Below are positions 29,521 to 64,000 of a stretch of DNA of 64,000 nucleotides, one piece after another (position 1 is the stretch's first letter; each line of letters opens with the position of its first letter). Origin of the DNA: Paramacrobiotus metropolitanus. Lineage: Eukaryota > Tardigrada > Eutardigrada > Parachela > Macrobiotidae. The notes under the pieces are model-generated. The model ran no database searches, was not told the origin of the DNA, and saw only the letters and a program-made list of their open reading frames with translations. The translations under genes were made by a program, and so were the position numbers. The DNA lies in the NCBI RefSeq assembly GCF_019649055.1, contig NW_026570287.1, positions 186,001 through 250,000 of the forward strand, read 5' to 3'.

Positions 29521-30289
29521 CGTCGTCGCCGTGGATGGCCGCAAAACTCCAACATCAAAACAAAACCACGAAACCAGTCTTATTACGGCGTCTACTTGAT
29601 GAAGTAATCGTCAATCCACAGATAAGATAACATTTCAGTTGGACTGTACGACAACTGTTATGCCAAATATTAAAATTTCAGTAATAATTACCGATTACAT
29701 GATCATGAATCGTGATAACGCAACTGTAACAATTACGTACATCGCACTGAAAAATCAAATGGGCAAAATAAAATTGGCAGCGCTGTATAGCTGGCACGAA
29801 ATATTTCCAGAATGGTAGTCGATTTCTATTCGGAAGCTGAAACACGTCACATAGTGAAACACGAGTCGAAAACTACGTTGCGCTGACACCGACTTCGTTT
29901 CGCGAACGGAAATTCTGTAAAATGTTGTCTTCCAAGTTGGCAGCCAATAAAATTTTTCCACACACTGCTGAATATTAGCTGTTTTTCATTTTTGATTTAT
30001 TGAACTAACAAAGAGAATTTCCATAAAAAAGATTACAAAGTTCTGTTTTCCGGAAATTTTGCGAGCGAAGGGATCGTTATCCGTTGATACTGCCTGGTGA
30101 GACGTGGGTGCACAACCTGGGGTTGACAGTTACACCTTCGGGGTGTTTGGATTTATTTGTTTTTGGGCTTGTTGCTGGTTGCACAACAGGCGCAAGCAAG
30201 ATCGCCAACTCGTTTCCGGATCTCTTTTTGGACTTTTTTGTTTTTGTTTGAATACTCCCGCATTTACTGATTGTGCTGCTCACCAGAGA
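29521..30289. promoter_or_regulatory. Divergent promoter region between the ORP gene and syntaxin-5
   Basis: The ORP start codon (minus strand, 29520) and the syntaxin-5 start codon (plus strand, 30290) lie head to head across about 770 bases with no supported gene between. The stretch must hold both 5' UTRs and probably a shared or back-to-back promoter. No TATA box could be assigned with confidence. The promoter role is inferred from orientation. Confidence 0.45.
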
Positions 30290-37405: not shown

Positions 37406-40400
37406 ATGCACAAATTATTGCGTCCACCGGAAGTTGCACTATTTTTTTCGTTTTTTTTATTACGAACTCCGTGGGCTATGACAGCAGATGTGATATTAAT
37501 TAGTGTGCATATTGGTAATAATCCTCTGTATGGATACTTTGCTGCGGCACCTGTCTACAATGTTGCGGTTAAACACATCAAGCAAATATATCCAACAACG
37601 TTAAGCAGTCTGCGGCACATACCGTTATTCTTACCTGGATATGACCTTTGCGCCGATGGTGGTGATCGTATGAATGAATTTGTTACGGCTTTTTATTTTA
37701 CTCATCCGGAAATATTTAAAAACAAAAGCGTATATCCAGTTTTCGGAAGCCCAGGTAAACCGTCCAGTTTTTCAAGTACTAGAGCGGAATAACAACTTTC
37801 CTCAAACACTTATTTATAACCTATAGTTTTAAGGGGCATTTTAGTTTCTCGCCAAGTGCATGACAAACCAATTGCATATTATTACACGCCGCCGAGCATT
37901 AAAAATAATGTTATGCTTTGCAATCGACTAGTACTCTGAATTTTTTGCTGAAAGCGGTTCTGTAATTTTTAGAATGCACAAATCAGGCTTTGGCACTGGC
38001 TGACTTGTCACGAGGTGAGACTTGTAATTTAGATCTAGAATTAGATCTAGCATGTAAAATTTTCTTGTACAGCTCGCAATTTTAATACTGTTTCTTAATG
38101 AAACATATTGGCAGGGATTTTACGTTTTGGTGATTTTACTCACGGCATTAAAACGTTTGCCCACATCAGTTTGTTTTAATTTTATAAAGGCACTACACAT
38201 TTAACAAAGATATAATTCCTAAATGAAGCTTTTGATACTACATTTTTGCATTCCTTTTATGCATCCTCACGCTTCTAACTTTTATACAGAGTTCGATCTG
38301 CCGCTTTTCACAAGGTAAGGGAGGCTATAATTTACCGTTGTATTGGACATATTGCATTGACGTCATCCCTATTTTGAAAGTTTCATATTTGGTAAGATGA
38401 CTAAAATATTTTTGGTCGACGAACACTAATTTCACCAGCTATCTATTCCTCGAATATTGAAATTTCTTTGTAAAAGCGGTTTATAATCGCACCACTGGGT
38501 CATAACCTGCAACCATTTTGACATTTAGTGTTGCCGGTGATTCACGTTTGACCAACCGCAAACGTTATCCCACAACTTCCGCAATAGCACCTCTTGCCGG
38601 TCCTGATGTGTTAGGCTGTGTTGACGCCCTGTTGAAGCGCTTCAACTGGAAAACGTTAGGCTTAATCTGTGATAGTATGAGCCATCTTCCGGGTCTTGCA
38701 AATTTCTTTTACGCCCGGTGTGTGGATTTACGGAAGTTTCTTACAAATCAAAAATACAACTGGTACAATAAAGAATACGACTCAGCAAAGGAGCGAGATT
38801 TTCATAGTTATCTGGCCTTCCTGAAAGATTCTGTTCGAGGTGACTACATAGTGGGAAAATGCTTGTCCAAGTAGGAAACGGCTAATTTAACTAACGTTAT
38901 TTCACAAATTTTGCATTTTTCGCAGTGTTCCTTATATTGACCATTCCGGAATACCTTTGGGAGTTTATGGTAAGTTAAAATACTTCTATCGCAAGTCATT
39001 GCATGTATGCAGCTACCAAATTACCTTCTAACTGCATTTGATAAAACTTTCCATCACATTTTATATTTTTTTCGTCCAAGCAAATCCATAATGACAGGGA
39101 ATTACAGGACTCAGTAGCTTATCATTAACGATTTTAAAATATGTCTGCGTGTAATGTACTATGCTCTCGCTTTTCCAGGTTACCGCTTATTCGATGGGTC
39201 TGACGAATGGAGAATACGTAAGCACGAAATAAAATATAATTATAGTAGTACTACTCTAGTTGCCTAGAATTCAACTAAAAAAATTTTGCAGCATCATAAT
39301 GCGTTAACATGCAGAGTCAAAATATTTGATCCCGTTTTTCAAAGTTTTGCGTTTTGAAGGAGATACCTTCCGTACTTCAGTGCTCATATATCTGTACTGT
39401 ATGACATATTTTATAAAGCAGTATGATGCAGCTGCGTATTAATACTGGCAATAACAGATAGCAGCGGAAGTCAGTTCAATCCACTTTGAAAATATATTCT
39501 TTTAACATTACCAGCTAAAGTGGAGTAAGGGGGAATGGCATTGTTGATGACACTTTAGGATCCAAATCTAGCACGTGCTCAAGTCCCTATCATAATCAAA
39601 CAGCATATAATCCTTTTCGATTTCACTAAATTTGATGACAGCGGAAAAAATACATTGCAGGTATTCATCGCTATACAGCCCACAAAACGACCCGGCATTG
39701 ATACTGTTTCATGGAGCGCCGGAACAAACAATGACCTGGTAAAAAATGCAAACGATCTATTAAAACGACGTATACCGCAAAATAACAACTGTTGTTAACT
39801 TATTGCGTATAACAATTATTTGTCCGTCTGTATGGGTTTATAATAGTCGACCAAATTCCATAACTACGGAATACTATGATTATCGATAATATGATGTCGA
39901 CTTTGGGTAAAATTCAGTTTTAGTGATCGTGCTCATTAATTTATGCGCTGCGTGATATTTTTGATTTGACAAAGTGAATTTTATTCGGTAATACACAGAC
40001 CTGAAAATCGTAAGTAAAAAGTACGGCTCGCAAAATCATTTACCGGTTTATACCGATCACTGAGGGTATTTTTAGGGTGCAATGGAGGCTTATAAGACGC
40101 TGATTGTCGTAACTGGTGTTGTCCCCAATTGGAACACAATAATTAACCTAACGTCGGAAATATCTACTACAGCACAGAACTTGTTCAACTATTCATATCC
40201 GCCTAAAGATAAGGTAAGAGCTCTCATAAATGCAATTCGAGGACCAAAAACTGAAAATTAATAACGTAGCACTTGCTAGCTTTTTTACTCCCATCATAAT
40301 CAAGCTACTTGATCTAACGTGCACGGTAAAAATTTTCCTCGAATCACTGCAGCAGAATTTTAAAGACTTTTTTAAAGTGGAGCAGTTCCTCATAAACGAT

Positions 40401-43400
40401 AGCACTAGTTTTATTGCTGAATAAAGGTAACGCTAAATAAGGGATACAAATCATAAAATCGCATTTTCGGTGGAATAAAAAATCTGTACCAGTAATAACC
40501 TGCACAAACCGCACCATGAATTTTGCTTAGTCGATGCTTCTCTAGTAAATTTTTGCGGATTACAGGAAAATGACATGCAAATTGGAATTTACGAATCGAC
40601 ACGGATGATGGCTCAGGTACAAAAACATGAATGATTTGAGTTTCCCCGCACAAGGTCAAAATGTGCACTACATTAATTAAAGTAGCAAACGATTTATGTT
40701 TATAAAAATCTAACGAATTCACTTCGCCCGCCAAGTGCAAATCTTTGCATACTCTAGAAAAAGTGGAATTTTTATAGCAACCAAATTAAGAAATCTACAA
40801 ATGGGCAAGTAGCAAAAAATATCGTTATGGAATTGCAGGTATTCGACGAAAACTATCCTGCAGTACTGGGAATGCCGAAAGCCAAATTCATACAAAAGTT
40901 TTTCAATCGCTCATTTAATTTTGCTGCCCGAAATTTTTCACTGGATGCTGTGGGTTCGAAAATAAATGATGTTCCTGTTCTGAGACTGAATTTGCTGACA
41001 AAAATAATGGAGGTGCGTTAGAAATATCTTGTACCCTATTAGCAATTTAAACCGCGACAAAGCTCCATTAATACTTCAAAACATACGAAATATGTGCTAT
41101 TGTTTCGTAGCCGGCCATGGTGTTCGATACTGTGGCAATGAAATTTTATGGTGTCAAAAACGAACTGTGGTACTGGGTCGGCAGAAACACTTCTCCTCCC
41201 GACAAGCCTTTATGCGGTTTTCGCGGAAACGAATGCGACAACAGTAAGCAAGCAGGATCCCACTTACGTCTGGATGATAGGGTGTTTGTCGTCATTCGTA
41301 CGCTGACCGGTGCTCAAACGAATGCTGCCATCCTTCTAGGTTCGCCCTTAATGCTTGGAGCCATTGCCGGTGGAGTTGCAGCAGGGGTTATTATTTCACT
41401 GACTTTGGGAATTGTTTGGTAATTGTCAAATTGTCCTGTTTTACATTTTGCTCAGTGATATGCAGATATATGCTATGCGAATAAGTGTGACTTAACATTT
41501 GTATATGGCCATACCGGTATACACGCCCGCCACTATTATTTTAAAGCGGGTATATGGTAACCTTTGGGCTGCAGTTACATACGTTACTGCGGACACGACG
41601 ATCACATGCGCTGGCTGCTGGATCCATCAGTTGTGACCCTTCAGACTAATGCACTTACGGTTGAGGACTCTCCCTGCAAGATGTATCTGGGCCGGAAGGG
41701 ATTTTTAGGCACCCACGAGATCTACGCTCTTCCAATTAAGCCGACTACTACTGTCGATGGCGAAGCAATCAAGAAAAACAAGAGACTTCGTAGACTACTT
41801 CATGAGGTGGAGTTTCACTTTAAAATTAAACGAAATCAGAATCGCTTGACGTGCATGCTGTTTTCACTATAGCTACACCATCTTCAACATGCGAATATTT
41901 CTCACTTTTTCGGAATTGTTTGTCCTGTTAAGAGCAACGAAATTCTCTTAATATCCAGTGGAGGCGGTAAAGGAAGTCTACGGTTGTTGTTGGATGGACA
42001 GATGCAGATGCTATCGGATGAAAGAGTCCTGTCATCCGTTTTAAATGATTTGCTTGAAGTGCGCCCTGCTACTGTATAATTTTTTCTGCAGGACAGATAC
42101 ACGTATCTGCAAAACATTTTTTCTTGTAGGGCATGGATTACCTGCATGGAAAACATCACGGTCATCATGGAAACATTACCAGCCTCAACTGCATTATCGA
42201 TTCCAGATATATTTTGAAACTATCCCACATAAATCACTTGAGACTTTATCATGACCTTTATGCAACGAGACCAATAATAAATTGGTCTTCAGCTGATTAT
42301 CGGACTATTGACATGTTATGGAAAGCGCCGGAAATCCTTGTTGTACGAAATAATATCGAAGCATTTCTGAGGAAATGCTCCACTAAAGAATGTGACGTAT
42401 ATGCATTTGGAGTTATTTTCTTGGAAGTAATAACAAAATTCGTGCCTTATAATGTGATTTTTGACTCGGAAAAATCAGTGGAAGGTAAAACAAACACTAA
42501 TTTTATCCGCACTGGAAACTAATTTAGGTTTACTGTATTAAGCTGCTGTCTTTGTAGCAATTTTGCAATATCCAAACCCATCTGAATAATCAAAGTTCAT
42601 AATTCTGAATTCTGTATTATTACAGCTGCGCTACAAATAGCCGCTCAAACTGGTTCGCATACCAAAGTTATTCCCATTCCGTTTGATCAACTTCCGGAGA
42701 ATGCTGTGTACTTAGTCAACAAGTGCTTTTTACCGCCGCATAAGCGACCAACAGTCAAAACGCTCAAAAAAGATCTCCAAAAATATCTTCCGAAATCACA
42801 CGACCTAATAAGGTATTTAAGCAAGAAACTACAAGAGTATTCTGAAGAATTAGAAGTGCTGGTATTGGAAAAAACGCGGGAACTTGAGATCCAGCGGTTA
42901 AAAGTGGAAGATATACTCAGCGAAATTTTGCCCAGGTAATTTATTGGGGTGCCATATCACTGGTGTGAAAATTTACAGAATAAATACGTTTCTAGCATCG
43001 TGATCCAAAAATTACGCAGCAAGGAAACTATTTCGCCGGAGCTGTACAAATGTGTGACCATCATGTTCAGCGACGTCCCGGCATTTTCTGATATGGTACA
43101 ACGGCGTCCACCCAGTGATTCCATATCGTTTCTGACACTGCTGTATTCCATTTTCGACGAGATTCACGGCAACTTTGACGTGTACAAAGTGGAGACCGTG
43201 AAGGACATCCATCTTGTAATATCAAGAGAGTGACCTTTTCGGAATTGTGTTCACATTTGATTTACATAAAACTTTGGTACATTAGTGGCGTTGTTGCAGG
43301 TTGTTAGTGGTCTGCCCCAGCGCAATGGTGATACGCATGTCTTCCACATATGTGATTTCTCGTTGGCGTTCCTACATTCCGTTAAACGAACTAACAGCAT

Positions 43401-44435
43401 CGCGACATCCCAATTCGACACCACATTGCGTGTAGGAATTAATTCAGGTACTGCACATAAAACAAAAGAACTAGTACTGCGTAGTATGCGCTGTTTAGAG
43501 ACCGCAATATAAAATGCAGTCCATATAAATCGCTGCAGTTACTGGACTTCCGGTGTATCTTTACATGCTTCTGAATACCGTGTATTAACCATATCATAAT
43601 TTTTTGTTAACTTAGGCCCGTGTGCAGCGGGAGTTATTGGCCTAACCTTGCCAAGATATTGCCTGTAAGTGAAAACTGCGCAGTAATTTATTGTACATAT
43701 TTACAAAATACGTGCATTTTTTGAAAAGTTAATCCGTACTGTTTATTGTTTATCATTTATAACAGTAGGCGGCAGATACTGTCGGTTCTACATGCATATT
43801 GCAGCCAATGAGTAATGTTTTATAATTTCTCAGTTTTAAATCGGTTTAGCTCTCCAGGTAGAGTATAAGTGCTAAATTGCTTCGCTGCTGATCTGCGAAG
43901 ATCCATAATTAATGACTTTTGTCAATCAGCATTAATTTATCCTTTAAGACGATAATTTTATTGTTCTCAGATTCGGGGACACGCTTAATACCGCTAGCAG
44001 AATGGAAAGCACTGGAGAAGGTGAGAACGATCTCATACATTCACTCGACTAAAGCATTTCGGTAGTTGTTGGTGTGTGACTCGTTGTTTTAATCACAGTG
44101 ACCCTTGATAAAAAACGTTATTTTGCAGCTGGTAAAATCCAGATCAGCCAGTTTACACGGGAACTTATTGGAGACTATTCTCCATATAGCATAACCCTGA
44201 GAGGGTTTGTGGAAGTAAAGGTGCGCGCGCAGTCACCACAAACAATTGAATGCACAATTATCGATTGTATATCGTGTATTTTATAACTGAAAGAAGCAAT
44301 TCCTACAATTTCTTCAGATAGTGTGATACCTTTAGCTTTTTTTAGTAATATGTAGTTCAAATTAATTTTTAACTTCACTTTTAGGGTAAAGGCTCGATGC
44401 GCACATACTGGCTATCAAATTCTGATACGAACTGA
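37406..44435 (+). CDS. Receptor-type guanylyl cyclase, copy 1 (22 exons)
   Basis: Exons: 37406-37754, 37973-38014, 38290-38314, 38529-38839, 38926-38969, 39179-39217, 39661-39738, 40076-40213, 40566-40616, 40839-41012, 41111-41243, 41340-41418, 41575-41806, 41873-42058, 42130-42484, 42626-42935, 42996-43215, 43300-43447, 43616-43664, 43971-44020, 44129-44220, 44385-44435. The frame closes to 1051 aa. Order: signal peptide, ANF-receptor-like ectodomain, one TM (about 463-487), kinase-homology domain (IYALPIK, HGNITSLN, no DFG), signalling helix (LEVLVLEKTRELE), cyclase. Metal-binding D875 and D919, guanine-selecting E915, LPRYCLFGDTLNTASRMES and the final GKGSMRTYW are present, so cGMP synthesis is expected. 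The ligand is unknown. Confidence 0.93.
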
Positions 44436-46761
44436 CAACAGACCCGAAGGAGCCAGTTACAACCTTAAAAAATTCTTAATGCCGGAGGAATTTTTTCTAC
44501 TAGCGCATCTTCCGTTCTGTAAGAGATGCGGCGTGCTGTTGGTGTTTTATTTTCTTGAATAACAATTTAAATGCCAAGCATATTTGTATGGAGATGTGCA
44601 TATCAGCGTGCAAGAAAGTACTCTTTTGAGTTATGAATCAACTGCAGTGGCTAACGTGCAGCATGCTTCCTGACACATCAACAGAATGCAGCATTCAGCA
44701 TTGTACGAGCGTTTTTAAAGTAGAAAAAATCATGCAGTAAATTTGATGCCAGTGGATACAACATAGTAGAATATCGTTAAGTACACACTAGAATTACGCC
44801 ATATCAATAGCCTTGCTACAAACTGAACAGACAAAATAAAGATCAGGTTAATTATACATCGCTGACTTATTAATTATATTTGCCATATCATATATCACTT
44901 AATACCTTTGTAATTATATCATTACATGCTCGCTGTTTGAGGATTCTGGTTTAGGTATATGGAAGCTGTATACTGTACTTGTCGTTACTTAATTACATGC
45001 GAGTGCAAAGGGTACTAGACACTGTTAAACTTTTTTTCAGCTTTTAGGACTCGTACAATAGCTATAATGGTAAGCAGCTGGCGTATAAGCACGGCATACC
45101 ATTTATACTAGCATAGCGCATTCTTATTCTTGTACTACGTTATAGTGTGTGTATTATGCCATGGTGCACGCATGTATTCGCTGTCAATAAGCGATTGTTC
45201 CCGAAGTTGTTGTGAAAATTTTTGTGAAGAGATAATAAAATTTGCAAATCCGTAAAAGTACATTTAAAATCATTTTCCGCTGGTGTACAAGCAATACCAT
45301 GCATAAATGCTGTTGCAATGGGCTAACATAAATACGTAATTGTTCTGAAGCGCAATAAATTAAGCATATCCCACTCGAGCAATGAAATTTGTTTTCATAT
45401 TTTAAAATCAATATTTTACCATACAGCCCAGAAAGCGTGGAAGCATTTACGATAATTATCCCTTGGTCGTACAGAGTACAATGGAATTTGCGTTACGCAC
45501 GACACATGAAAATGATCCTATGGAACAACCGCCCAGGTCAAGATCATTGTATCATTTCGCTGGAACTACAATCCTTCGCAAGTCATCAATACCGAAATAA
45601 AATTGCTCAACATCGTTTTGGAGGATTTTTTTGCACTACAGAGTACATACAGTCTGACGTACCTTCAAACTGCCATTTAAACGCAAAAAATATCTTTAGA
45701 TTCCATGCCCTCCATCAGGACTTACGTACTGCCCTCCATCAGGACTATTTCTTGCACTTTTGGGCGAAAAATTGTGCAATAAGGTGTTCAGGTTATAAAG
45801 AACATAGCCGTACTTTGCGATTGCTGCATCTAGTTTCACTTACAATAAACAGACATGAGCACATATCTCGCATTTTATCAATTCGTATCAAGGGTCACTA
45901 AATTTCCGAAAGGCCTTGGGAAGGGGATAGTACTGCATTATACGAGTGCTGTATAAATAGAGCATTTTTTCCTGGAACAGATTCTCTGATCTTCCAAGCT
46001 ACTTCCGATTATGGTGGAGAAACTGGAAACCATAACGCCTGCTGCACTAATATTATTCCTGCGCCTGAGCCGTTACGGCTAGTTCACGCTTTGCTGAATA
46101 ATAAAAGCCTTGCACATTTTATTTGGCATTCCTTCGTTATTAATTTGCTATTTGACATCGAAGTGTTAAGCACCGATTTAAGCAACTGCCGAAAGCCGAG
46201 GATGCGCCGTGGCTGTTAGTAATTATTTTATTCCGTAATATAAAGAGTAGAAGTACAGTATGTGTATGACTGCAGTTATATGCAGATGTCCCATACTAGA
46301 ATATCCTACACAGGCCGTCAGTGCTGTACGTTCACTACGTTGTGCATTAGTTATTGTACGCGCGTGCTTTAGAAGATTTTGCTATTCGGAGTTTGTGTAC
46401 GATCCTGTTAACTCAAACAAAACCGCCGACGTATCCGATGTGCTCCTTCCTACTCTCCCGCTTGCCGCAAGTAACCGGAAGCGCTGTGCAGATGCCGGTA
46501 TAATAATGCAGGTATATGCACAGAGTACATGCACAGAGACGTCAGCACATTTAAAACCCAACAAAGCAGTTTATCGCTGCAGGTATATGGGAATTCGAGC
46601 AGTTATTTTGATAATTGAGATCACTTTGGGAATTGCACGGCACATTATTCCAGAAAAACCATCCGACCAGTCCGTGATTCTATTGAGACATCCGGCATTT
46701 GCTGTAGCATTTTTAGCAGACAGTAAATATTTTTTCTCAGCATTTAAACGATCGGGACTCC
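44436..46761. other. Spacer between cyclase copies 1 and 2
   Basis: A 2.3 kb spacer. AATAAA at 44835-44840 may end the copy 1 transcript. A 17-base direct repeat lies at 45706-45746. Open frames at 45389-45901 and 46260-46761 have no family resemblance and no cyclase-like remnants. It presumably also holds the copy 2 promoter. Confidence 0.5.
45706..45746. repeat. Exact 17-base direct repeat, 24-base period
   Basis: TGCCCTCCATCAGGACT occurs at 45706-45722 and 45730-45746, in the spacer between the first two cyclase genes. Confidence 0.85.
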
Positions 46762-49700
46762 ATGCATGCCTGGCACGACCTACGTTTAATACACATATTA
46801 GGCGTCTCATTATTGTTAATATTTTGCTGCTTCAAATTACTGGATTCCCAGCTAATGAATGTCACTTTAATTACCATACATATTGGTTCGAATCCACTGT
46901 ACGGATATAATCAGTCTGCTCCCGTTTTTTCGGTTGCGGTTGATCATATCAAAGCCCTGTATCCGAATAGTTTGAGCAATATGCGGCATGTGCCGTTTTT
47001 CTTACGTGGCCATGACCTTTGCCGGGAAGGGGGAGACTTCACACCAGGTAAGAATAAATTTAGAAATTATATCCGTATCTGGAAATTGGATACGAGAATG
47101 AATTCAGTTCCGGAAAATAATTTCGTCACATATAAGGTAAACTTGATTAGATTGCAAATGGAAACGATGCAAAACACCATGATAGAAGTACATGCTGTTG
47201 CTTAATATGGTTTTCGTTGAAATAAACAGTTATTAAAGTCTAAACAAAATCGACCTACCTAAATTCATTATCTTGCAAAACCAAATCTGTTTCAGAATTC
47301 ATCGCCGGAGTCTATTATAACAACACAGAAATTTTCGATAACACAACTCAATTTCCAGTGCTAGCCCACGCCGGTACGCAGAATATATTTAGTGAATATT
47401 TCATGTTTTTATTGCAGCGCTCAAAGAAACCCACTGTTGCATGCACAATTTTTAATACCCTTCTGATCATGAGTGTATATTGTGGCTGAAGTCGAAATTG
47501 TTATTGTAGTTATCATACCCGCTTTTGTATCTATTTTGACCGTATAGTCTACACATATTCAATAGAGCACGTGAACGATTTATGGGCATAATTACGATTA
47601 AATGCGTTAACATCTTGCAGATTGCTCAGATCAAAGCATGCCCCTTGCAGATCTAGCACGAGGTAAGATTTACTTTTTATTCATCGCTAATATTGACATA
47701 ATTTGCGAACAAGCCTTTGTGGCTCCTGGGAATCTTTAGAGTGTCTGACATTTTTTACCACATTGTTGATTTTCCATGTATCAGGAGGCTATGCAAACAG
47801 TCTACAAAATTATTGCGGACTGCAGAGCTTCTGCTACGTACTCCTTAAAATGTACCCTTTTATATATACATCCATATGTAAAAACATAGATGTATTGAGA
47901 AATCGTAGAACGACAGAACTTTTGAATGGCAACGTTTTATTATAACTAGAACCAGTTTTTATGTTGCAGAATGGAATTTACCCACTTTTTACAAGGTAAA
48001 TATCCGGTACATGTTCCTATACCGTGGTATTAATGTCTGAACAAGTGTAATACCGATGGGATTACATAAAGTCCGTACACTTTTGCTATTTAAATATAGT
48101 GTTGCCGGGGACACTCGACTGGTGAACAAAAACCGCTACAGTACCACTTCCGCTATTGCTTCGCTGTCTGGACCTGACGTTATTACGACAATATATAAAC
48201 TTTTCGAGAGATTTCGATGGCGTACGATAACCTTGATCTGCGACGAGCTGAAACAGTCACCCGGCCTATCCAATTTCTTCGTCATACAGTGCGGGGATGC
48301 CAGGAGAATGCTGGCCGACCGTGGTTACACGTGGTACTTTAGACAAATTAACACCGCCGAGGAACAACGGTTCCATGACTATCTGACAGAATTTAAGGAC
48401 AGATGTCGAGGTAGGAACTCATCAATTATTCCTACGCGCTTTTGTGCAAACTCCCCATACCGGATAACATGTCAGAAAATTTTATATGTGTTATGCATTC
48501 GGAATGACATAAAAGACAATCGGTGTCAATATTTCATAGAAGCATAAGTCAGGTCCTTTTCGATCTCAGAATGCACGAACCGTTAAATTAGTAAATCCTA
48601 CTCGGATAAACAACCGGAAGGTCAAAGATGTTGTGTGCTACAAAACGCAGCTATCGGCCACTTTCCAGAAATACGTCTTATACAATTAGTGCGAAATATC
48701 TTCTGTGCAAAGCACATATTGATACTGAATACATATCGTATGCAGGCAATGACCAAAAGGAATACATATCCAGAAATAGCAAGTCTGTTTTCATTACAGT
48801 GTTTATTTTCCTTACTTTACCAACGTTTCTCCGCAAAATAATGGTAAGTGTCTTTCTGCAATGATTCTTACCATGCACTTAGTCAAATACCTACAAAATG
48901 CCGCCTTATACCTGTTTGGAATATTTTCTCAGCTTGCAGCAAGCGAACTAGGATTAACGCAAGGAGACTATGTAAGTTGTGACAAACGGTACAAGTACAA
49001 ACGGTCTACTTCTCGTGCAGAGTAAAGTCCATTAACGAAGGGTAATTGCGCCACGTAACGTTTCTTTTTTCTACTATGATGGTCCGCCATGAAGGGTATA
49101 ACAGCTAATTTAATGAAGATGCTCTATGTGTTTTTACATCAAATCGATCCATACAGTCAGCGCTATTGCATTAAGTCGCTCGAAGTAGTTTGTGCTCGAA
49201 TTTAAAACCAACTATGCTGACAACGACGTTCACACTCGACGCACCGTCGCACCTACTGCAATCCTAGCTACATCATCCGTATATTCGTTTACCTTCTCTG
49301 AGTCCTTGACGCGAAAATTAAAGGTTCACTTAAACATGACCGCCTGTTTGAGTTGATATATATGTAGGTATTCGTTACACTTCAGCCCACCACGAGACCA
49401 GGCATTTCTCCAATTACCTGGATGACTGCTCCGGATGGCAATCGTAGCTATAATAATATCAGCCGCGAAGATGAGGTACTGTATTTCCCATGCCAGCAAT
49501 ATAGGCCGGATCGCTGCAACACATTATATTTCGGCAGCACTGCACTGTCATCCAGGCCGCTTCATTTCCTTTTTTAATGTTTCTAGATCATATTCCGGGC
49601 TTATCAAAACCTAATTGTCTTGACCGGTGTTAATCCTGACTGGAACGCAATAACCAACTTAACCGATGAAATTGCCAGTAAAAAAAGGAAGCTCTTTGAT

Positions 49701-52700
49701 CAGTATACGCCGGCAGGGGACGAGGTGCGACACATGGCATGCAATACTGCTATTGCTCATTATTTAGCATTTTCGGAACATTCTTCTCTTGCACATAAAT
49801 AATATTTAACTTTCCGTGGTGCTAAGGCAATTTCATTTCTGACCTTTTGTGCCCCATTATATTTCTGTGTATTTAGCGGAACGAACTCCAGATATGTATA
49901 TACGAGTCGACAATGATGTTCGCACAGGTAAATGCGAGACTCCAGCAACGACTACATACGTAACTCGGTCAAATAAATTAATGTGTTGCGTATATGTTAA
50001 ATTTCTGTTGTATTCATAATAATTGACAATCTGTATCATGCATATATTATTTATAATGTTGTAATTATTTATTAGTGGTAGAAGTACATACTTACAAGTG
50101 GGTATATACTTCCAGATTTATAACGAAAATTATCCTCAAGACCTGACCATGGCTAAACCGGAGTTCATATCCAAAACCTTCAACCGGACATTCAATTTCG
50201 CAGCAAGGAATTTTTCTACGGATAAAAACGGTGCCATGATAAACTACATTGTTGTCCTTCGCTTGGACCCCGTTAGCAAACTTTTCATGGTAGGTTGTGC
50301 TTAGCACCTTTATTGTATGTTGTGCTTTATGTATATCACATATTTTTTATAACATCAGTATTTGAATCTTTGGATATAAACGCAATCATAGAATGTATAC
50401 TTCTACGCAATTTTTTTGTTATCGGCAGACAGCAATGATATATAATCCGATGGTAGAGGCGTTCACAAATGTGAACTATTCCTTGTGGTACTGGGTCAAT
50501 CGAAATGATACGCCTCCAGACAAACCGCCTTGTGGATTTGCCCATAATGAATGCTCATACACCGAAGCAGGTAATTTACAATCTATAGTGACCTATACAG
50601 GTTAAGGCTTACCTCTGCGAGATATTTTGTTTTTAATTTAAAATTTACCATATCAACTGGTTACAGAATCGGCCATGACCAAAGGTGTTGCGGCAGCATT
50701 CGCTTTGGCAGTGGTAACGATTGGAACCGCGGGCGTCATCTTGTACGAGTTTTAAATAAAAACATTTAAGCTTTAAACAAAGACATTTTTTTATATCCAT
50801 ATTACATATTTAGATTGATAAAACGTCAAAGAGATTTAGCCGATTTATGGTGGTACATTGAGCCGGGCGCTTTGACATATCCTGCTAACAAAGCCCACAT
50901 CCAAAGGATAGAATCGTTTACGGCTGTGGAAGACGGAATTGTTGGCCTTAGGATGCATTATCGTTATCAAAACGTTTATGCGACGATACTGTCTATGAAC
51001 AATGGACAGGGCATTCCGCTATCCCGGCATCGGAAGTTACTTGCGTATTTGTACAATGTAAGCGCCAGCGTTGACCTTTATGAGTAAGACATGAATGCAA
51101 CGATTACGGAAAGAGAAATATTTATAGTTACGTCACATCGCACACGAAAACATTGCTCCACTTGTCGGCATTTCCCAAATTGAACACACGGTAATACTGG
51201 TAAGCGAATATGGCTCAAAGGGCACTTTACGCCATCTGCTGAGTATGGGAGAATTCAGGATGGATCCTAAATTGCACTGTTCACTGTGTTGGGATTTATT
51301 TGAGGTACGTGAGCGGCGAATGTACTTTTCCGAGGTTCGTGTCCAGTATAAGATTCTTTTGATTCATTAATTTCAGGGTGTGGAATATTTGCAGAAAACA
51401 GTATTCGGCGGTCACGGAAATCTAAGCAGTTTTTTATGTTCAGTTAACTCAAGATTTTCACTTAAAATTTGCCAAACCGGTTATGATAAAATTTACGAAA
51501 TTCTTAATGCTGTCAAAGAAGTCCATGACGCTGGGCATCTGGAAGCTGTACAGAGTTTATGGAAGCCTGTCGAATTTATTCGGTTGAAAGGTCAAAGTGC
51601 CTACTTTCGCCAAACGCTCAAAGATATAAGGGATACTGATATCTTCGCTATGGCGATGATAATTTATGAAATTATCACGCACAAGCTGCCGCATAACATC
51701 GAAGATTTTTCTTTCGATGTTGTAAAAGGTAACCACATATTCGACAACTGTTTTTTTTAAGCAGCGGGTTAACGTTGATGATGTATAAAGTATTGTCTTC
51801 ATTACAGTAACTTCAGCCAAAGTAATTTACGAAGGAAATTTTCGTATCACGGAAGAGGAGTTGTTGGTTGCGTTCCCCTTGCGGCACTTACTGAATTCGT
51901 GCTTTTCGAGTCTTACTGAAAATCGTCCAAACACCAAAGTTTTTCGTGCTAAACTACAGAAAATCATGATCAAGCCAAAACCGTATTTTGAACAAATTGC
52001 TCGGGATCTGGAGTCCCATTCCAGGCGACTGGAGGAAGCGGTCAGGGACAGGACTCTGGAACTTTTGGATGAAATAGAAAAAGCTGATTTGCTTCTGCAG
52101 GAATTACTCCCACTGTACGTACCGGCTATAATATATTGTACTTGTGTATATAGTCGATCAGCTTAGGATCTCTACCTGTACGTTAGTGAATCTTTCTAAG
52201 TACCGTACAAATACTTATCATTAATGCAGGTGGTTGTCCTAATTTTATTTATCACAATTTTATTTTCCTATAAAGCATTAAAGTTTCAGAAATTCTTTTA
52301 ATTTATTGCAGACCACTCGTAAAACAACTTCGCAACAAGGAATTAGTTGCACCGGAATATTATGATGGCGTGACAGTATTATTTAGTGATCTACCGGAAT
52401 TCGCACAAGTCGGCTTGCAGTGTACACCCATGGAAGTTATAGGTTTTCTCAACACAATTTACTCAACGTTCGACGAGGTCATACCACAGTTTGATGTGTA
52501 CAAACTGGAAACTATAAACGATAGTTATGTTGTAAGCAAAATAATTTGCATAAGTATTTCATAAGTAGTAAAAATGCGACAACATTTAAACTACGAAGAC
52601 AGGCTTAGTAGTGCAAGTGCTGTTCTGCATGTTCTATCGTTATAAGACACCTTTTGTTGTGACAGATTACAAGTGGAGCACCGGTCCGCAATGGATCCGA

Positions 52701-53475
52701 GCATGCCGTTGTGATATGCAATCTGGCTCTGGAACTCATCAAAACATCGAGGAAAATACACAGTCCTCTGGATGCGGACCGCCCGGTGGAAAGTCGCATC
52801 GGCGTAAACACGGGTCAGTGGCACGCCCATGTGTCCTTTATCCTTTGTGTGGCTGAAATAATTGCTACTTTGTAGTACTGTTTGTCTGCAGGTCCAGTAG
52901 TGGCTGGAATCGTTGGGAAGAAAATGCCGCACTACTGCTTGTACGCATTTGCTCATCTATGAAACCTAACTATTATTTTTTTGTACTAGTATAGTAATGA
53001 CTTTTAATCTATGCAGGTTTGGGGATACTATCAACATATGCAGTAGAATGGGAAGTCTCGGAGAAGGTAAAAAAATCGAGCACGTCTTGAAGTTTTTAGT
53101 ATTACTGTAATTTGCAATGATATGTGCGGCTTGCGCACCACTCCACCACTTATACGAGTATACAAACAGTAGAGTACAATAGATGCATAAGCGGTGACAG
53201 GTAACTCGTTACAATTTGAATGTTACTACACATTGTGTCTATCCTTATAAATGTTTTGCAGAAGGAAAGATTCACCTCAGCGAAACAACTAGTGCTATGA
53301 TAATGCATCGAAAGGATTTTTTTGTGATACCACGAGGAGAAATATATGTCAAGGTTCGATTTATTGTTCTTTATCTATTGCTGCTTTGTTGGATGTAGAC
53401 GCTTTCGTTGGGTATTCATAGGCCTTGTTTTTGCAGGGTAAAGGAGTGATGAACACGTTCTGGCTGACGAAATAA
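46762..53475 (+). CDS. Receptor-type guanylyl cyclase, copy 2 (23 exons)
   Basis: Exons: 46762-47047, 47296-47373, 47621-47662, 47956-47995, 48100-48410, 48800-48843, 48933-48971, 49368-49475, 49587-49724, 49877-49927, 50116-50289, 50429-50570, 50667-50742, 50814-51057, 51128-51304, 51377-51728, 51808-52114, 52312-52531, 52666-52813, 52892-52940, 53017-53066, 53262-53353, 53437-53475. The product is 1068 aa with the same architecture as copy 1. The first exon is split by an intron absent from the other copies. Exon 4 keeps frame only from the acceptor at 47955; the site equivalent to the other copies (exon from 47970) gives 26 instead of 25 bases and shifts frame. The cyclase keeps FSD, LETIND and NICSRM. 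It has MPHYC in place of MPRYC, and the kinase-like domain lacks the usual lysine. Confidence 0.88.
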
Positions 53476-54846
53476 TTAGTTCGATTTATGTTTTTTCGCC
53501 TTTAATATACGATGTGCGCCTGTTTCAGTTGCCTCGCAAAATGTGTTCTGATAAAATTACGCATTTTTCTCCTAAGCGCCGTGAAAAATTTTTTGTGCTC
53601 ACAATCAGCGAAGTTTTTCATTGCCGCAATTCTTTGCACACTTAACATAAACCGATGGCTACTGGCTGCAATATGTGAATATAAGGACTAGCTGGACATC
53701 TCATTTGCTCGCGCAATAACATAGTTTTAAATTCAAACACAGTAGCTGTATTAGATTAGTGCAAAAATATAATTTGTAGATGCGATTCATTCAGTTTCAG
53801 AACGTGTGGCATGCATAGTATTATGAATATCCACAAAGCACAAAAACAAGTATTAAGTCATTCTAGGTCTATAACAATTACGCAAAAATCCCATATAATC
53901 ATGACTCAATTACCATATGTACGGTAATAAACATTATAAGCATAAAAGCGTTAAGCCAATCGATTTGCAGCCATTTGTACGGCACGAAAAAACCGCAGAT
54001 TCACGATAAATTGGAAACTAAAGGCACTGTAGGAAATACTACATAGTAACAGTTCTTCTTTGTGGTAAGGTTTCAAAAGTTAAATTTAGTATTTTCTCAG
54101 TTTTGACTTGATGTAATTATTTTCCGGAGCGAGTGCGTGTTTTGAGGTTTTAATTCTGAAAGAGCAAAGCAAGGCTGCGTGCATTAACGAAATCATACTT
54201 TCTCGATAGCTATAGCGGGCAGTGTATTTAAGACGTAGCGGCTAGCGTTAAGTATACGAGTATCTTGGTAATTCCGTCTTGTCTATTAGATCTGGACAAC
54301 TGATGCTGGAACCATGTTTGGTTCCGACGACGTCAAGTAAGCTTACAATCAGAAGCTTGTATCCGATATTATCCTCTAAAATGCACCATAGTTTTAATTA
54401 ATGCATGAAAAATGCACTGGTGCATATGTGGCTGCACGCATCAGGTGTCTGTTGTTCGGGATAGACGACATTAGAATCTGCTTATTATATGTTGGCAGCC
54501 TCGGGATGATCATATAGACTTCCGATTTCCGTTAAGCGGCATATTTGATATGAAGCGTATTATTGTTATCATTGCATGCTCCCCACTTCAGTATCAAGTT
54601 TCATTAGCCTATGTACGTGGTACCCACCGATAAACTTTTCTGGTACATGCACATTATTTGCTATGACAGTTCCCGTGAGAATTAAAATCTGACGGCAGCG
54701 ATGGTTACTCCCTTTTGGTTATTAGACCGTACTTGTCGTTCCAGCTGCAACTACAGTACCTGTATTGTTAACCACATTCTTATATTATCGAACTCAAAAG
54801 ATGCTCACGTTGAGCGTGTTGGTCATGTATAGTGGATATTATCAAG
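53476..54846. other. Spacer between cyclase copies 2 and 3
   Basis: A 1.4 kb A+T-rich spacer with an AATAAA near 53925. It has no supported coding sequence and presumably contains the copy 3 promoter. Confidence 0.5.
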
Positions 54847-57800
54847 ATGCTGTTTATTGTAATCCGTTTAATATTTTTCGGTGTTTGTGGAGTGCAAGGG
54901 ATAATTAAGAACGTGGCCTTAGTATCGGTTCATGTCGGCAACAATCCCATATACGGTTATTTTTTGGCTCGACCTGCTTATGAAGTTGCCGTTAGACATA
55001 TCAAAAAGCAGTATCCGCTATCTTTGGGGAATATGCAATACTTTCCAGTGGTCAAAGAAGGCTACGATCTGTGTGCCGAAGGTGGAGACCATGTGCCTGA
55101 AGCTTTCTTGGATTTTTATTATAATCGCTCGGATATATTTAAATCCGATGATGTCTATCCTGTCTTAGCTAGCCCTGGTATGCATACAGTACAGAACTCG
55201 TACAATCACGCTCAGCTAACATTTCTTTAAAACTTGATTTAACCGTATTCGTCTACAAAATATTGTTCTGCTGTATACAACAAGTATTGGATTTCTAAAA
55301 GCATATAAGCATTACTTTATAAGAGACCGGCTCATTATCAGATACGTGAACTATGAAACACTACTTGCACTAGTTATATTCCTGTTTCTGAAAATTATAA
55401 GATTTAAAGCTAACATTACGATTAATTAATTAATATTATTGAAGCATACACGAACCCAACCTTTATAATTTGCAGTTCACGGATTATGTAGTAATGTGAT
55501 TGAGTGATTCAATAAATTTTGTGTCAGGGATGATATAACCAGTCGGTTATAAGTTTTCCGTTTGTTAGTTCATTACCTGGTTCTACCCTATTGCAAGCGC
55601 GTAAATTTTGAATTTTCAGAGTGCTCCCTTCAAGCAATCCAGCTGGCTGATCTTGCTCGTGGTAAATGAAATTGCTTCTTGTAAATAGCTGTTGTTCCGT
55701 ATCTCGATTTTTCAAAATAACTCCTGAAATTTTTGTTTCAGAATACGATTTACCTTACTTTACAAGGTATGATTAGGTCCTATTTTAGCTGACTGGCTGA
55801 TTGTGGTGACTAATTTTATTAAATTAGCGTGGCAGGAGATCTGCGACTGACAAACAAAACACGATATTCCACAACAGCCGCAACAGGTAACGTCGAAATT
55901 ATGTAAACACTTTGTAAAATTACTTAAGTTTTATCATAGTGTGTTGCTGGTACGAGTAATTCTGAGAAAAGCTTTTCCTGACCATATCTTGATCAATGCA
56001 GCTTCTCTTGCCGGGCCGGATGTTGGAGCCGCCATTGCCGCTTTATTAGAATTATATTCTTGGAGAACGATAACCTTAATCTGTGATACACTTTCCCTTC
56101 ACGTGGGATTAGCCAATTTTTTTGTTGTTCAATGTGGGGATGCCAAAAAGTTAATGGACAGAGAAAAATATCCAGGTTATGTTCGGGAAATTGACTCTTC
56201 CATTGGACAGGATTACACTGAACTCCTACAAAGTTTTAAAGACCGTAGCAGAGGTAAAATAAATAAACCGCATCGATTTAAACTAAAATTAACCACTTAA
56301 ATCAATAACACTGCTTTACTTTCAGTGTTCATATTCCTTACAATGCCGGTTTACATAAGGCGTTTAATGGTGAGCAGATGCTTGTTAATGAGTGAACCCA
56401 GCACCAATAAATTACTAATATTGTTGATGGTCAAGAGCTTTGCTTTCCTAGCAAATCTCTTCCACTTGTGAATTTGATCCAATTTTTGTATACTTTTTTA
56501 GATAACGGCACATCTGCTAAACATGACGTCTGGAGGATTTGTAAGTGGCGGTTGTTTCCGGTCGATTCACTTACATTTTAAGAGTGTTTTGCGAACGTAA
56601 ATGTTACACTTAAAATGTATTGATCATACCAATTAGTCCTAATTAATGTATTGCTTCATCGATAAATTCTTAATTGTGGTGTTGTATAAAGAAAGCGCTG
56701 CTTCTGTTAAAGGTTTTTATCACACTTCAACCTACCGAGCGTCCCGGTATACAAGCTGTCAACTGGAACCAAAAGGGAGACGAAAAGAATAACGCGGTAA
56801 GCGACGTGGTTATAAAATTTTTAACAGAATATCTGTAGACGACAGTTCTTGCACACTTTGTTAAAAAGTATATAAAATATCGCTGCCAAGAGGTGCACTC
56901 TAAATAGTTGTACTCAGCTTTTAATTATTTTAATTTGGTGGATTGTTTTAGATAGCGTCAGTAGCGTACCGGAATCTAATCGTTCTTAGCGGAATGAATC
57001 CGAACTGGACGGAAATCAAGAATTTGACAGATGAAATAGCCGAAGAGGGAAAGCGGCAGTATAACACGACAACTCTTCCCGGGGACGAAGTAATTCCCGA
57101 AATGTCTTCCTTGAAATACATAAAAATATAAGGAAGTCTGTTTACCCTTTCCGGCATCTTTCCTTGTAGAAGAACGAACAAATAACATCGGTTTATGAAT
57201 CAACAATGATGTTTGCTCAGGTATGCAATCTCTCACGCGCAGCTGTAAGATTATTCACATGCATATTGCATATGCAGCTCCACGAAAACGCCTCGGCACA
57301 GATATTAAACTTTAATTATTATGGAATTTTCTATGCAGATATTCAACGAGTCTTATCCGGAGGTGTTCACCATGCGTAAAAGTGATTTTATTAAAACGTA
57401 TTTCAATCGGGAATTTAATTTTGCCGGACGGACATATGCTACGGATGAGAATGGGGGCATGGTGAACTACATTGTTGTCAGCCGATTAAACCCTAATACG
57501 ACAAACCTGGAAGTACGAAAATAGTATTATTGCTCTAATGCGTTAGCTGGCTAAATATCTGAGTTTCTGACTAGTTAAGTGCTACTTGTAGGTAGCAATG
57601 ATCTACAATGCCACATCCCGAAGTTTTGTTAATATCGTGCCAGAATTGTGGTACTGGGTTAACCGAGACGATCCTCCTCCCGATAAACCGTTGTGTGGAT
57701 TTCGAGAAAACGAATGCGATGTTTCCCACATAGGTACGCTAGCGTAAGCGCAATAATATGGCATATTGCCCGTAATCATAAAAGGCACATGTGCAAAAAT

Positions 57801-60800
57801 ATTAACCTGATGTGTTTTGTCAATCTGCGTTTGCCTGCGTAATTTTTTTTGCGTTTTGTGATGATTACTACTTCATGCACTGTTGCTTCAGGTTCGGCCA
57901 TAAAAACTGGAGTTTCGGTTGCGGCGGCTTTTATTGCTCTGGTGACCTTTGCCAGCTTTGCTTATTGGTACTGAAGTACATACGGTTGCAACATGGTGTT
58001 TGGGTTTACAATCGTATACCTGCACATGTACTGACAGTACAGTATGAAACAGCTGATTTCAGTCTGTGGTTTGCAGCTGGACAAAACGGCGCCAGGAGCT
58101 TTATGATCCATGGTGGATACTTGATCCTGAGAAATTTAGTTTTGCTCCAAGATATCAAGATACGACCGACAACTTTACTAAAAAGCTTGCGGACTTGAAG
58201 CTAGGAGTTGTTGCCAGATACACTACGCGGCACGTCTATGCTTTAAATATTTCCAAAACTCCAGAGATGGACATCATCCAACATATCGCAAATAAAAAAC
58301 AACTTCTCATCACGCTTTATCAGGTATCATATAAATAGTATTTGGTACCTGTCGAGTATCGAACTTCTCTGATGCGTTAGTTCAGCGATAGCGAAACTAA
58401 TATCTATAAACAGCGACAACATATGTACACGTATGTACTGTTGTAATTAATTAAAGAATCTATTAACCATAACGCGTAGCGTATAGTAATTTTTAAAATA
58501 CATGAAGAAGTTTTGAAAGCAGACAACGATTCTAGAACACTCGTATAGTATTCGCTCATTATACAAGGCACAGTAACATGGTGCATTGACTGCATTCATT
58601 CGAATAGCTGAGGGGCGTATCTCACTACAACATCGCACGCTTTGGAGGCATTGTTCGGTATACGGCGGATTATTTTCTTATTTCCGAGTACGGTTCAAAA
58701 GCAACGCTGCGCCAGTTTATTGAAAAAGAACATATAGTGATCGATAAAGATCTAAAGTCCTCGCTGATGTGGGATATATTAGAGGTAACTCGCGTCGTGA
58801 TACTTTAAGAGAAAAAACATACAAAAGTTACTATATTGTATCGGTGTGTGCATGTGTGCTGTTACCATTAACAAAAAATTGCGATGAAATTCATTGACTG
58901 ATTGATAGGGTCTGGACTACCTGCACCAAAGTTCAGCTGGACTACACGGAAACTTGAACAGTTTATCTTGCATTCTGGATGCCAGATACTGCTTAAAAAT
59001 AGCTCAAGCAAAATATTGCAAGTTTTTTGACTTGCTTAACATATCAAGAAGTCTCGAAGTCGATTGCGTGGAATTACTGTGGAAATCTCCGGAACTATTG
59101 CCCCATAAAACAACTAAAGGAGAAAAGCATAAAAAGATTCATTTAGCAACTAAAGAAAGTGATATATATTCGCTGGCAGTCATATTTTGCGAAGTGTACA
59201 CCAGATCTTTGCCCCACGGAGCGACTCTGGATTCAATCAACTCTATTCATGGTAACTGCTCTCTTTTCAATTAGCATTTTCAACTAAGAAATTTAAATTA
59301 ATTTTTTTCTACACACGTTGCATTTGATACTTGTAGAAGCTGTTAACAAAATCATCGACAATCATGGATACAGAATACCTGCAATACCCGAAAAGGTCAT
59401 GCCTGAGAAGCTGCAGTATTTACTCCGTTTGTGCCTTGGTATTCCGAGTAAACGTCCAACGATCCGGATATTCCGCAAACACTTCCGCTCTGTCCTACGA
59501 AGACCAACTACGTACCTGGTTCACATAATGAAAAGGCTCGAAAAGCAAGCCGAAGATTTGGAACATCTGGTTGTCGAGCGGAACCGCGAACTGGAAGGAG
59601 AAATGCACAAAGCGGACTTGTTATTACAAGAAATGCTTCCGCTGTACGTACTGTTACATTTCCGCATCCGGGTTATACACGAAAAGAAAAATCCAATAAT
59701 TAACTTTTAATAACTATAATTAGGCAATAGACCGCGAGACACTTTATTAAGCGTGTAAAACGATTTACACTAACTATTAGAAATTAATATTCTAGTGCTT
59801 ACAGCATTGTGCTTAATTTTCGTACAGTTCATTATTTTGTGTTCTAGATCGATTGTTAGACGTCTTCGCAACAAACTACCAATTGCTCCTGAATTGTTTG
59901 AAAGCGCTACTATCATGTTTTGTGATATTCCTCTCTTTCAAGACATCGTTGTTACCAGCTCACCATTGGAGATTATTATTTTTCTCAATATGGTTTATTC
60001 CCACTTTGACCATCTTATCGAAGCCTTCGACGTTTACAAAGTTGAGACCATAAACGATTCCTATGTAGTAAGTGAACGACACGCATTTATATATGTATTC
60101 TGCTAGGCAAAATATCTACCTGTTCTTACAAATTAAAATTACTAATTATAACGAACTTTTATAGATTGCGAGTGGTCTTCCAATGCGCAACGGAATAGAA
60201 CATGCGTATGAAATTAGCAAACTTGCACTGTCGCTTGTCAAGGCAGTGAGAAGGCTTCCGAACGCTGGTCTTGCCGAGCGAAGTGTGCAATTAAGAGTTG
60301 GAATTAATTCAGGTACAAATAAAACGGGCAATAAAACAAGTACTACTTTATTGTTCTCGCTACGTTTATGAAAATTAAATATGTTAATTTATTTTTATGC
60401 CAACGGTGAATGTGCGTTTCTGACGGCTTAAAAGTATTCTTGGCAATATTTAGGTCCCGTTGTGGCCGGGGTTATAGGAAAGCGTATGCCGAGATATTGT
60501 TTGTGAGTATAATGCATGGCAAATACTACAGTACAGATAGATCAGTAAATTGCAATATTTGATTATTCTTATACATCACTCTGTGACATACAGACATGGC
60601 CTTTTAATGGCAGGGAGTGCCTTGTTATTTTTGTAAGATTGTATAATTTAATATTTTCAGGTTCGGGGATACAATGAATACAGCAAGTCGAATGGAGAGC
60701 AATGGACAAGGTAAGCTAAGAGAGTAATTACAGCGTACTCTGGTAACATTTAAATGGTACGGCCATAGTGTAACAAATTACAACTGCCACTATAGTATTG

Positions 60801-61516
60801 CGATAATGATGACATTCAGAGGTTACTAGTGTCAGTAAAGGTCAAGTTTCACCGACAAACTTGCAGTACTCCCACTATAACGAGGGGAAAGGAGAAATAC
60901 TGCAGTGTACTGTATACCCAGGATTAATATCCATGAATAGATTTTTTTGTGCAGAAGGAAGAATCCACATTAGCATGGCGACAAAGGAAATGGTCGAGTC
61001 AAGCTTTTACACTGAAGCCAGAGGATCTGTCAATATTAAGGTACCTTTCTACCAAACTACAGTCGAAGACTTGCAGCTAAATAATAAGAAAATTAATACA
61101 GAAGTGTTTTACAGCACTGCATAAAGCGTTGTGTTGAAACACATTTAATTCACTTCTTGTCGTTAATTTATTGCTACTAGTTATAATTCAAAATCTTAAC
61201 TGACGTCAGTTAAGATTTTGAATTATACCTTATTATTTTTGATTATTATACCTATTTTTGAACTATTCGTCATATGACGAATATCTGTATTTACATATAC
61301 CGAGAATTTAGAATCAAATTGTCACAGCAGATGCACAAGTTGAAAATATCAGCGTTTTAAACATTGCTAAAGTCTTCAATTCATATTCATAAAATTGGTG
61401 CTACAGTGATTCTGCACTTCTTGCTTGGTATGCTCAAATTTTCTGCCGCACAGGGAAAAGGGATAATGAAGACCTTCTGGCTCATCGAGAACTACGAGAA
61501 GGCGTTTGCTCTGTGA
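54847..61516 (+). CDS. Receptor-type guanylyl cyclase, copy 3 (23 exons)
   Basis: Exons: 54847-55177, 55620-55661, 55742-55766, 55828-55886, 56002-56253, 56326-56369, 56502-56540, 56713-56796, 56952-57089, 57170-57220, 57339-57512, 57592-57733, 57892-57967, 58077-58323, 58608-58784, 58909-59251, 59337-59643, 59848-60067, 60165-60312, 60454-60502, 60661-60710, 60955-61040, 61454-61516. The product is 1048 aa. ATG 54847 opens MLFIVIRLIFFGVCGVQG, a signal peptide. Exons 4 and 5 total 311 bases, exactly the single exon of copies 1 and 2, so an intron was gained here or lost there. The kinase-like domain has VYALNI (no lysine) and HGNLNSLS. The cyclase has FCD, KVETIND, MPRYCLFGDTMNTASRMES and GKGIMKTFWL. 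AATAAA follows the stop at 61528. Confidence 0.93.
61182..61227. repeat. Perfect 46-base palindrome centred on TGACGTCA
   Basis: The sequence reads TATAATTCAAAATC outward from each end and meets at TGACGTCA, with no mismatch and no spacer over 46 bases. It lies in the last intron (61041-61453) of cyclase copy 3. The centre is a CRE-type octamer, but the extent of the palindrome is far more than a transcription factor site needs. Confidence 0.92.

Positions 61517-63310: not shown

Positions 63311-64000
<690 letters not shown>

Follow-up and report, generated by a model that had tools for sequence, protein, structure and literature searches.

Three receptor guanylyl cyclase genes in tandem

The window, by which we mean the whole 64,000-nucleotide stretch of Paramacrobiotus metropolitanus DNA analyzed here, contains three receptor guanylyl cyclase (rGC) genes, c1, c2, and c3. 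According to our splice models, they stand in tandem, head to tail, on the + strand (Table 1). A first, automatic set of models was scored on codon use, splice consensus, and cross-copy homology. We then revised each exon manually while comparing it with the other copies, a procedure that favored conserved sites. In the final models, GT-AG borders are found in 65 of 65 introns, and the frames of c1, c2, and c3 are free of internal stops. Every gene was modeled with a start, a terminal exon, and a stop of its own, and the intergenic gaps measure 2,326 bp (c1-c2) and 1,371 bp (c2-c3). One AATAAA per gene is present less than 600 bp past the stop (at 399, 450, and 11 bp), which is weak evidence in DNA that is AT-rich. 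An earlier note on this DNA had described three full-length rGC genes arranged head to tail; our models bear this out, and its outer limits, 37406 (the ATG of c1) and 61516 (the stop of c3), match them exactly.

A tblastn search of the whole window with the three proteins gave 110 pieces at an E value of ≤0.05, all within 37.4 to 61.5 kb. None of these pieces lay on the minus strand, and the window showed no fourth copy or remnant. The region from 45386 to 46907 (+), in the gap between c1 and c2, has open frames of 171, 105, and 219 codons, the last of which runs, in a different frame, into the start of c2. The 171- and 219-codon frames gave no Pfam match, and these open frames are probably due to chance.

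Table 1. Genes, domain-encoding exons, and copy-specific features of the rGC cluster (positions are those of the window)
Feature	Position	Strand	Description
rGC gene c1	37406-44435	+	22 exons, 1,051 aa; 21/21 introns GT-AG; Pfam ANF_receptor, PK_Tyr_Ser-Thr, and Guanylate_cyc above cut-off
c1 ectodomain exons 1-11	37406-41243	+	ANF_receptor match at residues 69-359; aligned to NPR-A (1dp4)
c1 transmembrane exon	41340-41418	+	Hydropathy peak of 2.26 from residue 462
c1 kinase-homology domain and coiled-coil linker exons	41575-42935	+	PK_Tyr_Ser-Thr match at residues 556-796; D(F/H/Y)G without aspartate
c1 cyclase exons	42996-44435	+	Guanylate_cyc E 3.9e-50; eight catalytic residues kept
rGC gene c2	46762-53475	+	23 exons, 1,065 aa; 22/22 introns GT-AG; Pfam ANF_receptor, PK_Tyr_Ser-Thr, and Guanylate_cyc above cut-off
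c2-only intron	47048-47295	+	c1 and c3 continuous there
c2 exon via upstream acceptor	47956-47995	+	40 bases; keeps frame open
c2 transmembrane exon	50667-50742	+	Hydropathy peak of 2.48 from residue 486
c2 kinase-homology domain and linker exons	50814-52114	+	Model, Pfam
c2 cyclase exons	52312-53475	+	Guanylate_cyc E 5.3e-54
rGC gene c3	54847-61516	+	23 exons, 1,048 aa; 22/22 introns GT-AG; Pfam ANF_receptor, PK_Tyr_Ser-Thr, and Guanylate_cyc above cut-off
c3-only intron	55887-56001	+	Divides 311-base exon into 59 + 252
c3 transmembrane exon	57892-57967	+	Hydropathy peak of 2.05 from residue 460
c3 kinase-homology domain and linker exons	58077-59643	+	Model, Pfam
c3 cyclase exons	59848-61516	+	Guanylate_cyc E 3.1e-57; best PDB match GC-A, E 2.2e-63

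Exon lengths and phases

Ten exon lengths (42, 44, 39, 138, 51, 174, 220, 148, 49, and 50 bases) are identical across c1, c2, and c3 in the final models, just as the earlier note had listed them. Once the two c3 pieces of the split exon are merged, an eleventh slot of 311 bases is also equal, giving 11 equal slots out of 22. When the exon order was shuffled in 20,000 trials, the mean number of equal slots was 0.02 and the maximum was 2, compared to the 11 observed, a contrast that overstates the case because the hand refinement favored splice sites conserved between the copies. The automatic, unrefined models had made use of cross-copy homology and of neither exon length nor phase; in these, only the lengths 138, 51, and 49 are equal in all three copies. 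The phase is the same at 21 of 21 shared junctions of the final models, again in agreement with what had been proposed. The homology of the copies is independent of splice refinement, as seen in cross-copy protein matches with E values down to 3e-36 and in strong Pfam matches.

One ectodomain exon differs by a single base. It has 25 bases in c1 (38290 to 38314) and c3 (55742 to 55766), and its c2 counterpart, when read from the homologous acceptor (exon from 47970), has 26 bases and is out of phase. The c2 frame stays open only by use of an upstream acceptor (exon from 47956, 40 bases), which costs a conserved segment that gets replaced. The one-base difference could stem from an error in the sequence, from genuine change, or from alteration of a splice site, and these three look alike in the DNA.

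Encoded proteins and their likeness to known receptors

All three proteins match the ANF_receptor ligand-binding domain (PF01094), PK_Tyr_Ser-Thr (PF07714), and, at the C terminus, Guanylate_cyc (PF00211) above the Pfam cut-offs, and two of the three also match PF00069 above its cut-off. By hydropathy, each protein has a single hydrophobic span between the ectodomain and the kinase-like domain, with peaks of 2.05 to 2.48 from residues 460 to 486. Weaker peaks of 1.56 to 1.60 (residue 719 of c1, 253 of c2, and 176 and 877 of c3) lie inside folded domains. The N termini of c2 and c3 are strongly hydrophobic, while that of c1 falls below the same threshold.

The domain order is the same as that of GC-A (atrial natriuretic peptide receptor 1, PDB 9bcv), which we take to be the human protein. 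GC-A is the best PDB match of all three cyclases (E values of 4.7e-55 for c1 and 1.2e-53 for c2; for c3, see Table 1), and it aligns with c3 along most of its length (E 1.6e-102). Guanylyl cyclase C (GC-C, PDB 8fx4) aligns with c3 through its cyclase and kinase-like domains (E 7.8e-77). The juxtamembrane Cys pair of GC-A and the cysteine of its GPGC motif align with the copies. The chloride-binding rGC motif is defined in PMC5225109 as S(x)nGPxC; GPxC was found in none of the three copies, in which SPEC, HADC, and SPEC (c1, c2, and c3, respectively) stand for the GPGC of GC-A.

The cyclase active site and the kinase-like domain

The catalytic residues D, D, E, R, C, N, R, and K are retained in all three copies. 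They comprise both metal aspartates, the E and C that specify guanine, and the further R, N, R, and K. The DIVGFT of the phosphate loop, as found in GC-A, has become D-x-P-x-F-x (DVPAFS, DLPEFA, and DIPLFQ in c1, c2, and c3, respectively), with G and T gone from all three copies and T replaced by S, A, or Q. In GDAY (KDIH, NDSY, and NDSY), the glycine preceding the second metal aspartate is replaced by K or N in every copy. GC-C, unlike c1, c2, and c3, retains both DIVGFT and GDAY. Since the GFT of the phosphate loop and GDAY are usual in the rGC family rather than defining, their change weakens the claim of normal catalysis and leaves rGC membership untouched. The P of DxPxF and an H-to-N change (GINSG/GVNTG) are common to all three copies and absent from GC-A and GC-C, which points to a common ancestor of the three copies after their divergence from those receptors.

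In the kinase-like domain, HGN is retained in all three copies, and D(F/H/Y)G is without its aspartate in all three, the residue that GC-A has in DYG. According to PMC8045692, D(F/H/Y)G is believed to be a sign of basal activity in the rGCs of C. elegans. Judged from the residues kept and lost, the cyclases most likely work with altered or weak catalysis; erosion of the phosphate loop would have weakened or changed their activity without abolishing it.

PMC5225109 and PMC8045692 describe changed active sites also in DAF-11/ODR-1, an obligate heterodimer of C. elegans. There, each subunit gives essential residues to one shared site, whereas c1, c2, and c3 keep the eight residues and have a changed phosphate loop. 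The hallmark of an obligate heterodimer, subunits without essential residues, was thus not found among the eight positions checked, all of which are kept in all three copies.

The ectodomain is the most conserved large domain within the cluster

In the part aligned to GC-A, the ectodomains are 49 to 55% identical between copies, compared to just 20 to 22% identity to GC-A. For the kinase-like domain, the corresponding values are 25 to 32% and 20 to 26%, and for the cyclase, they are 42 to 53% and 47 to 48%. The mean identities, between copies and to GC-A, are 51% and 21% for the ectodomain, 29% and 23% for the kinase-like domain, and 48% and 48% for the cyclase, an equality that in the cyclase is partly apparent and due to saturation, because a fixed core sets a floor to identity (73 positions are invariant in the copies, 62 of them common to GC-A). 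We also computed the within-cluster identity minus the identity to GC-A on the sites present in all four sequences (c1, c2, c3, and GC-A). This difference is +0.295 for the ectodomain (95% bootstrap interval, 0.247 to 0.347; 343 sites), +0.06 for the kinase-like domain (0.024 to 0.097; 295 sites), and +0.005 for the cyclase (−0.039 to 0.052; 198 sites). The interval for the ectodomain overlaps neither of the others.

Branch lengths under LG+G give a similar picture. In the ectodomain, the branches of the copies are 0.38 to 0.47, compared to 3.1 for GC-A. In the cyclase, they are 1.09 (c1), 0.83 (c2), and 0.43 (c3), compared to 0.36 for GC-A and 0.77 for GC-C, values in which fast cyclase evolution throughout the lineage and acceleration after duplication look alike, because GC-A is the sole reference with all domains. 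In the cyclase tree, with these two outside cyclases, the three copies lie on one side and GC-A and GC-C on the other of a split with 100% ultrafast bootstrap support. The closest pair is c2-c3 in both the ectodomain and cyclase trees and c1-c3 in the kinase-like tree; support values, computed for the cyclase tree only, are 54% by ultrafast bootstrap and 0.883 by FastTree. The domain trees thus disagree on the closest pair and support no single order of duplication.

Within the cluster, conservation among the three large domains is therefore highest in the ectodomain, and the intracellular half is the part that has diverged most, relative to GC-A. The earlier note had held that the proteins diverged widely outside the key motifs and that the ectodomains were free to diversify. 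Wide divergence does apply to the kinase-like domain, with the low identities given above, and does not apply to the ectodomain in the part aligned to GC-A. The idea of freely diversifying ectodomains is contradicted by the comparison with GC-A, in which conservation is greatest in the ectodomain and least in the intracellular half.

Age of the duplications

At codons for the same four-fold-degenerate amino acid, the third base is identical in 56 of 162 cases (c1-c2), 48 of 175 (c1-c3), and 66 of 181 (c2-c3), against an expectation of 0.25 to 0.26 from composition. The copies are thus at or near saturation at synonymous sites, which makes old duplications probable. In the ectodomain, four-fold identity lies above expectation for the neighboring genes (39/91, z 3.8, for c1-c2; 37/93, z 3.3, for c2-c3) and shows no excess for the nonneighbors c1-c3 (23/88, z 0.1). 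Six tests in the other two domains gave z values from −0.9 to 1.3. At six linker-and-cyclase positions, the three copies agree with one another against GC-A and GC-C. An old local expansion had been suggested before; within the limits of the method, the exon phases, these six shared positions, and the four-fold sites at or near saturation all support it.

Tandem expansion of rGC genes in other animals

Tandem rGC expansion is already a known kind of event, and what is unusual in the cluster is that the pattern of divergence is inverted. In C. elegans, too, the gcy expansions are local and intrachromosomal: according to PMC1435932, rGC genes form large clusters on chromosomes II, IV, and V by lineage-specific local expansion. 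RGC-group kinases number 3 in Trichinella, 27 in C. elegans, and 28 in Haemonchus contortus, according to PMC5015942. The 27 rGCs of C. elegans have greatly heterogeneous ectodomains, and all but GCY-11 are found in sensory neurons, as stated in PMC8045692. The gcy ectodomains are thus heterogeneous by description, whereas those of the cluster are its conserved part. By analogy with nematode rGCs, a chemosensory role of the cluster is possible.

Among the matches listed in a search of open-licence literature, we saw neither an account of this cluster nor one of any rGC family in which the ectodomain is conserved and the cyclase has diverged; this does not prove that none exists. Relatives were also sought in viral and prokaryote contigs, where 40 and 429 stretches, respectively, matched a pattern; none was confirmed in either set, as expected for an animal gene.

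Interpretation of the cluster

We consider it probable that the locus holds three complete, separate, paralogous rGC genes that arose by old tandem duplication, with ectodomains conserved and roles split mainly on the output side. An old local tandem duplication would have produced the three genes, each of whose products, as far as the sequence can tell, would be a single-pass membrane receptor that dimerizes and makes cGMP. A similar ligand-sensing shell would have been kept, for the same or a related ligand or for a common ectodomain dimer surface. The roles would then have split mainly at the output, that is, in basal activity, kinase-like regulation, catalytic strength, and perhaps mutual pairing, together with different expression. 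Mixed dimers could form via the conserved ectodomains, and heterodimeric rGCs are known in C. elegans (PMC5225109 and PMC8045692). We suggest more tentatively, as a rather speculative extension, that one conserved sensor shell stands before three fast-diverging output halves whose phosphate loops are altered, so that the same signal might meet different catalytic strengths or regulation, possibly in mixed dimers formed via the ectodomains.

Duplicated rGCs are usually held to acquire new ectodomains. In this cluster, change fell instead on what was expected to be fixed, while the supposedly variable part was kept. If this is true in related species, the cluster would be a test case for diversifying receptor output behind a shared input, as well as a test of how much phosphate-loop change a cyclase tolerates.

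An alternative close to the reading of the earlier note is that of a chemosensory or peptide-receptor family whose ectodomains diversified for different ligands around a fixed cyclase core. Such an expansion matches the pattern described for the C. elegans rGC family in PMC8045692, and the copies' ectodomains do differ at about half of their sites, which leaves room for changed specificity. We find it unlikely here, since it is the ectodomain that is most constrained within the cluster relative to GC-A and the intracellular half that is least constrained.

Divergence of the intracellular half might instead reflect decay or loss of catalysis in at least one copy, with cyclase and kinase-like domains drifting once no longer needed. 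Three losses common to all copies would fit such decay: that of G and T in the phosphate loop, that of the glycine preceding the second metal aspartate, and that of the D(F/H/Y)G aspartate. So would the 26-base exon of c2, compared to 25 bases in c1 and c3. Frames that stay open for 1,048 to 1,065 aa, GT-AG borders at every intron, and eight of eight catalytic residues in all three copies are not expected under drift to saturation, however, and make decay a doubtful reading. A pseudogene reading for all three copies was considered and is unsupported, given the open frames and the retained catalytic residues.

It is improbable that the likeness of the ectodomains comes from gene conversion rather than from constraint. 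The four-fold excess in the ectodomain, confined to the neighbors c1-c2 and c2-c3 and absent from c1-c3 and the other domains, is what conversion might leave behind. The longest identical nucleotide runs in the three pairs (14, 14, and 15), however, fall within codon-shuffled ranges (95% points of 17, 18, and 17), and amino acid support for the three pairings is unordered along the ectodomain (P values of 0.46, 0.58, and 0.20), so neither the run-length test nor the order test detected conversion there. The synonymous excess between neighboring ectodomains stands unexplained beside these two negative tests.

Exon shuffling could have placed the intracellular halves of different rGC genes behind a common ectodomain, and the cyclases are indeed no closer to one another than to GC-A, and the closest pair in the kinase-like tree is not that of the ectodomain and cyclase trees. 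The equal phase at the 21 shared junctions, the common P of DxPxF and N of GINSG/GVNTG, and the grouping of the copies against GC-A and GC-C, the two outside cyclases, argue against this origin, which we regard as very improbable. That the cluster is one long gene with alternative modules is hardly credible, for although all exons are on the same strand, each copy has a separate start, terminal exon, and stop, and strongly hydrophobic N termini recur in c2 and c3 (with c1 below the threshold).

Other features of the window

A tRNA scan and an Rfam scan at gathering thresholds found nothing in the window. Tandem repeats occupy seven rows of the repeat list, none of them past 34.6 kb. On the minus strand, an open frame at 3107 to 3721 has a weak AIP3 match (E 0.004, below cut-off), and two open frames at 33021 to 34546 are pieces of an LRRFIP-family gene (Pfam PF09738, E 9e-24 and 3e-11). 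On the + strand, a 336-codon open frame at 30101 to 31108 resembles syntaxin 5 in part (Syntaxin-5_N, 16.7 bits against a cut-off of 16.6), and we presume the remainder of the frame to be syntaxin 5-like as well. Beyond the cluster, an open frame at 63451 to 63813 (+) looks like the TMD0 at the N terminus of MRP/ABCC transporters, with a TMD0_ABC match (E 0.014) that stays below the cut-off; if it is MRP/ABCC, the gene continues beyond the window.
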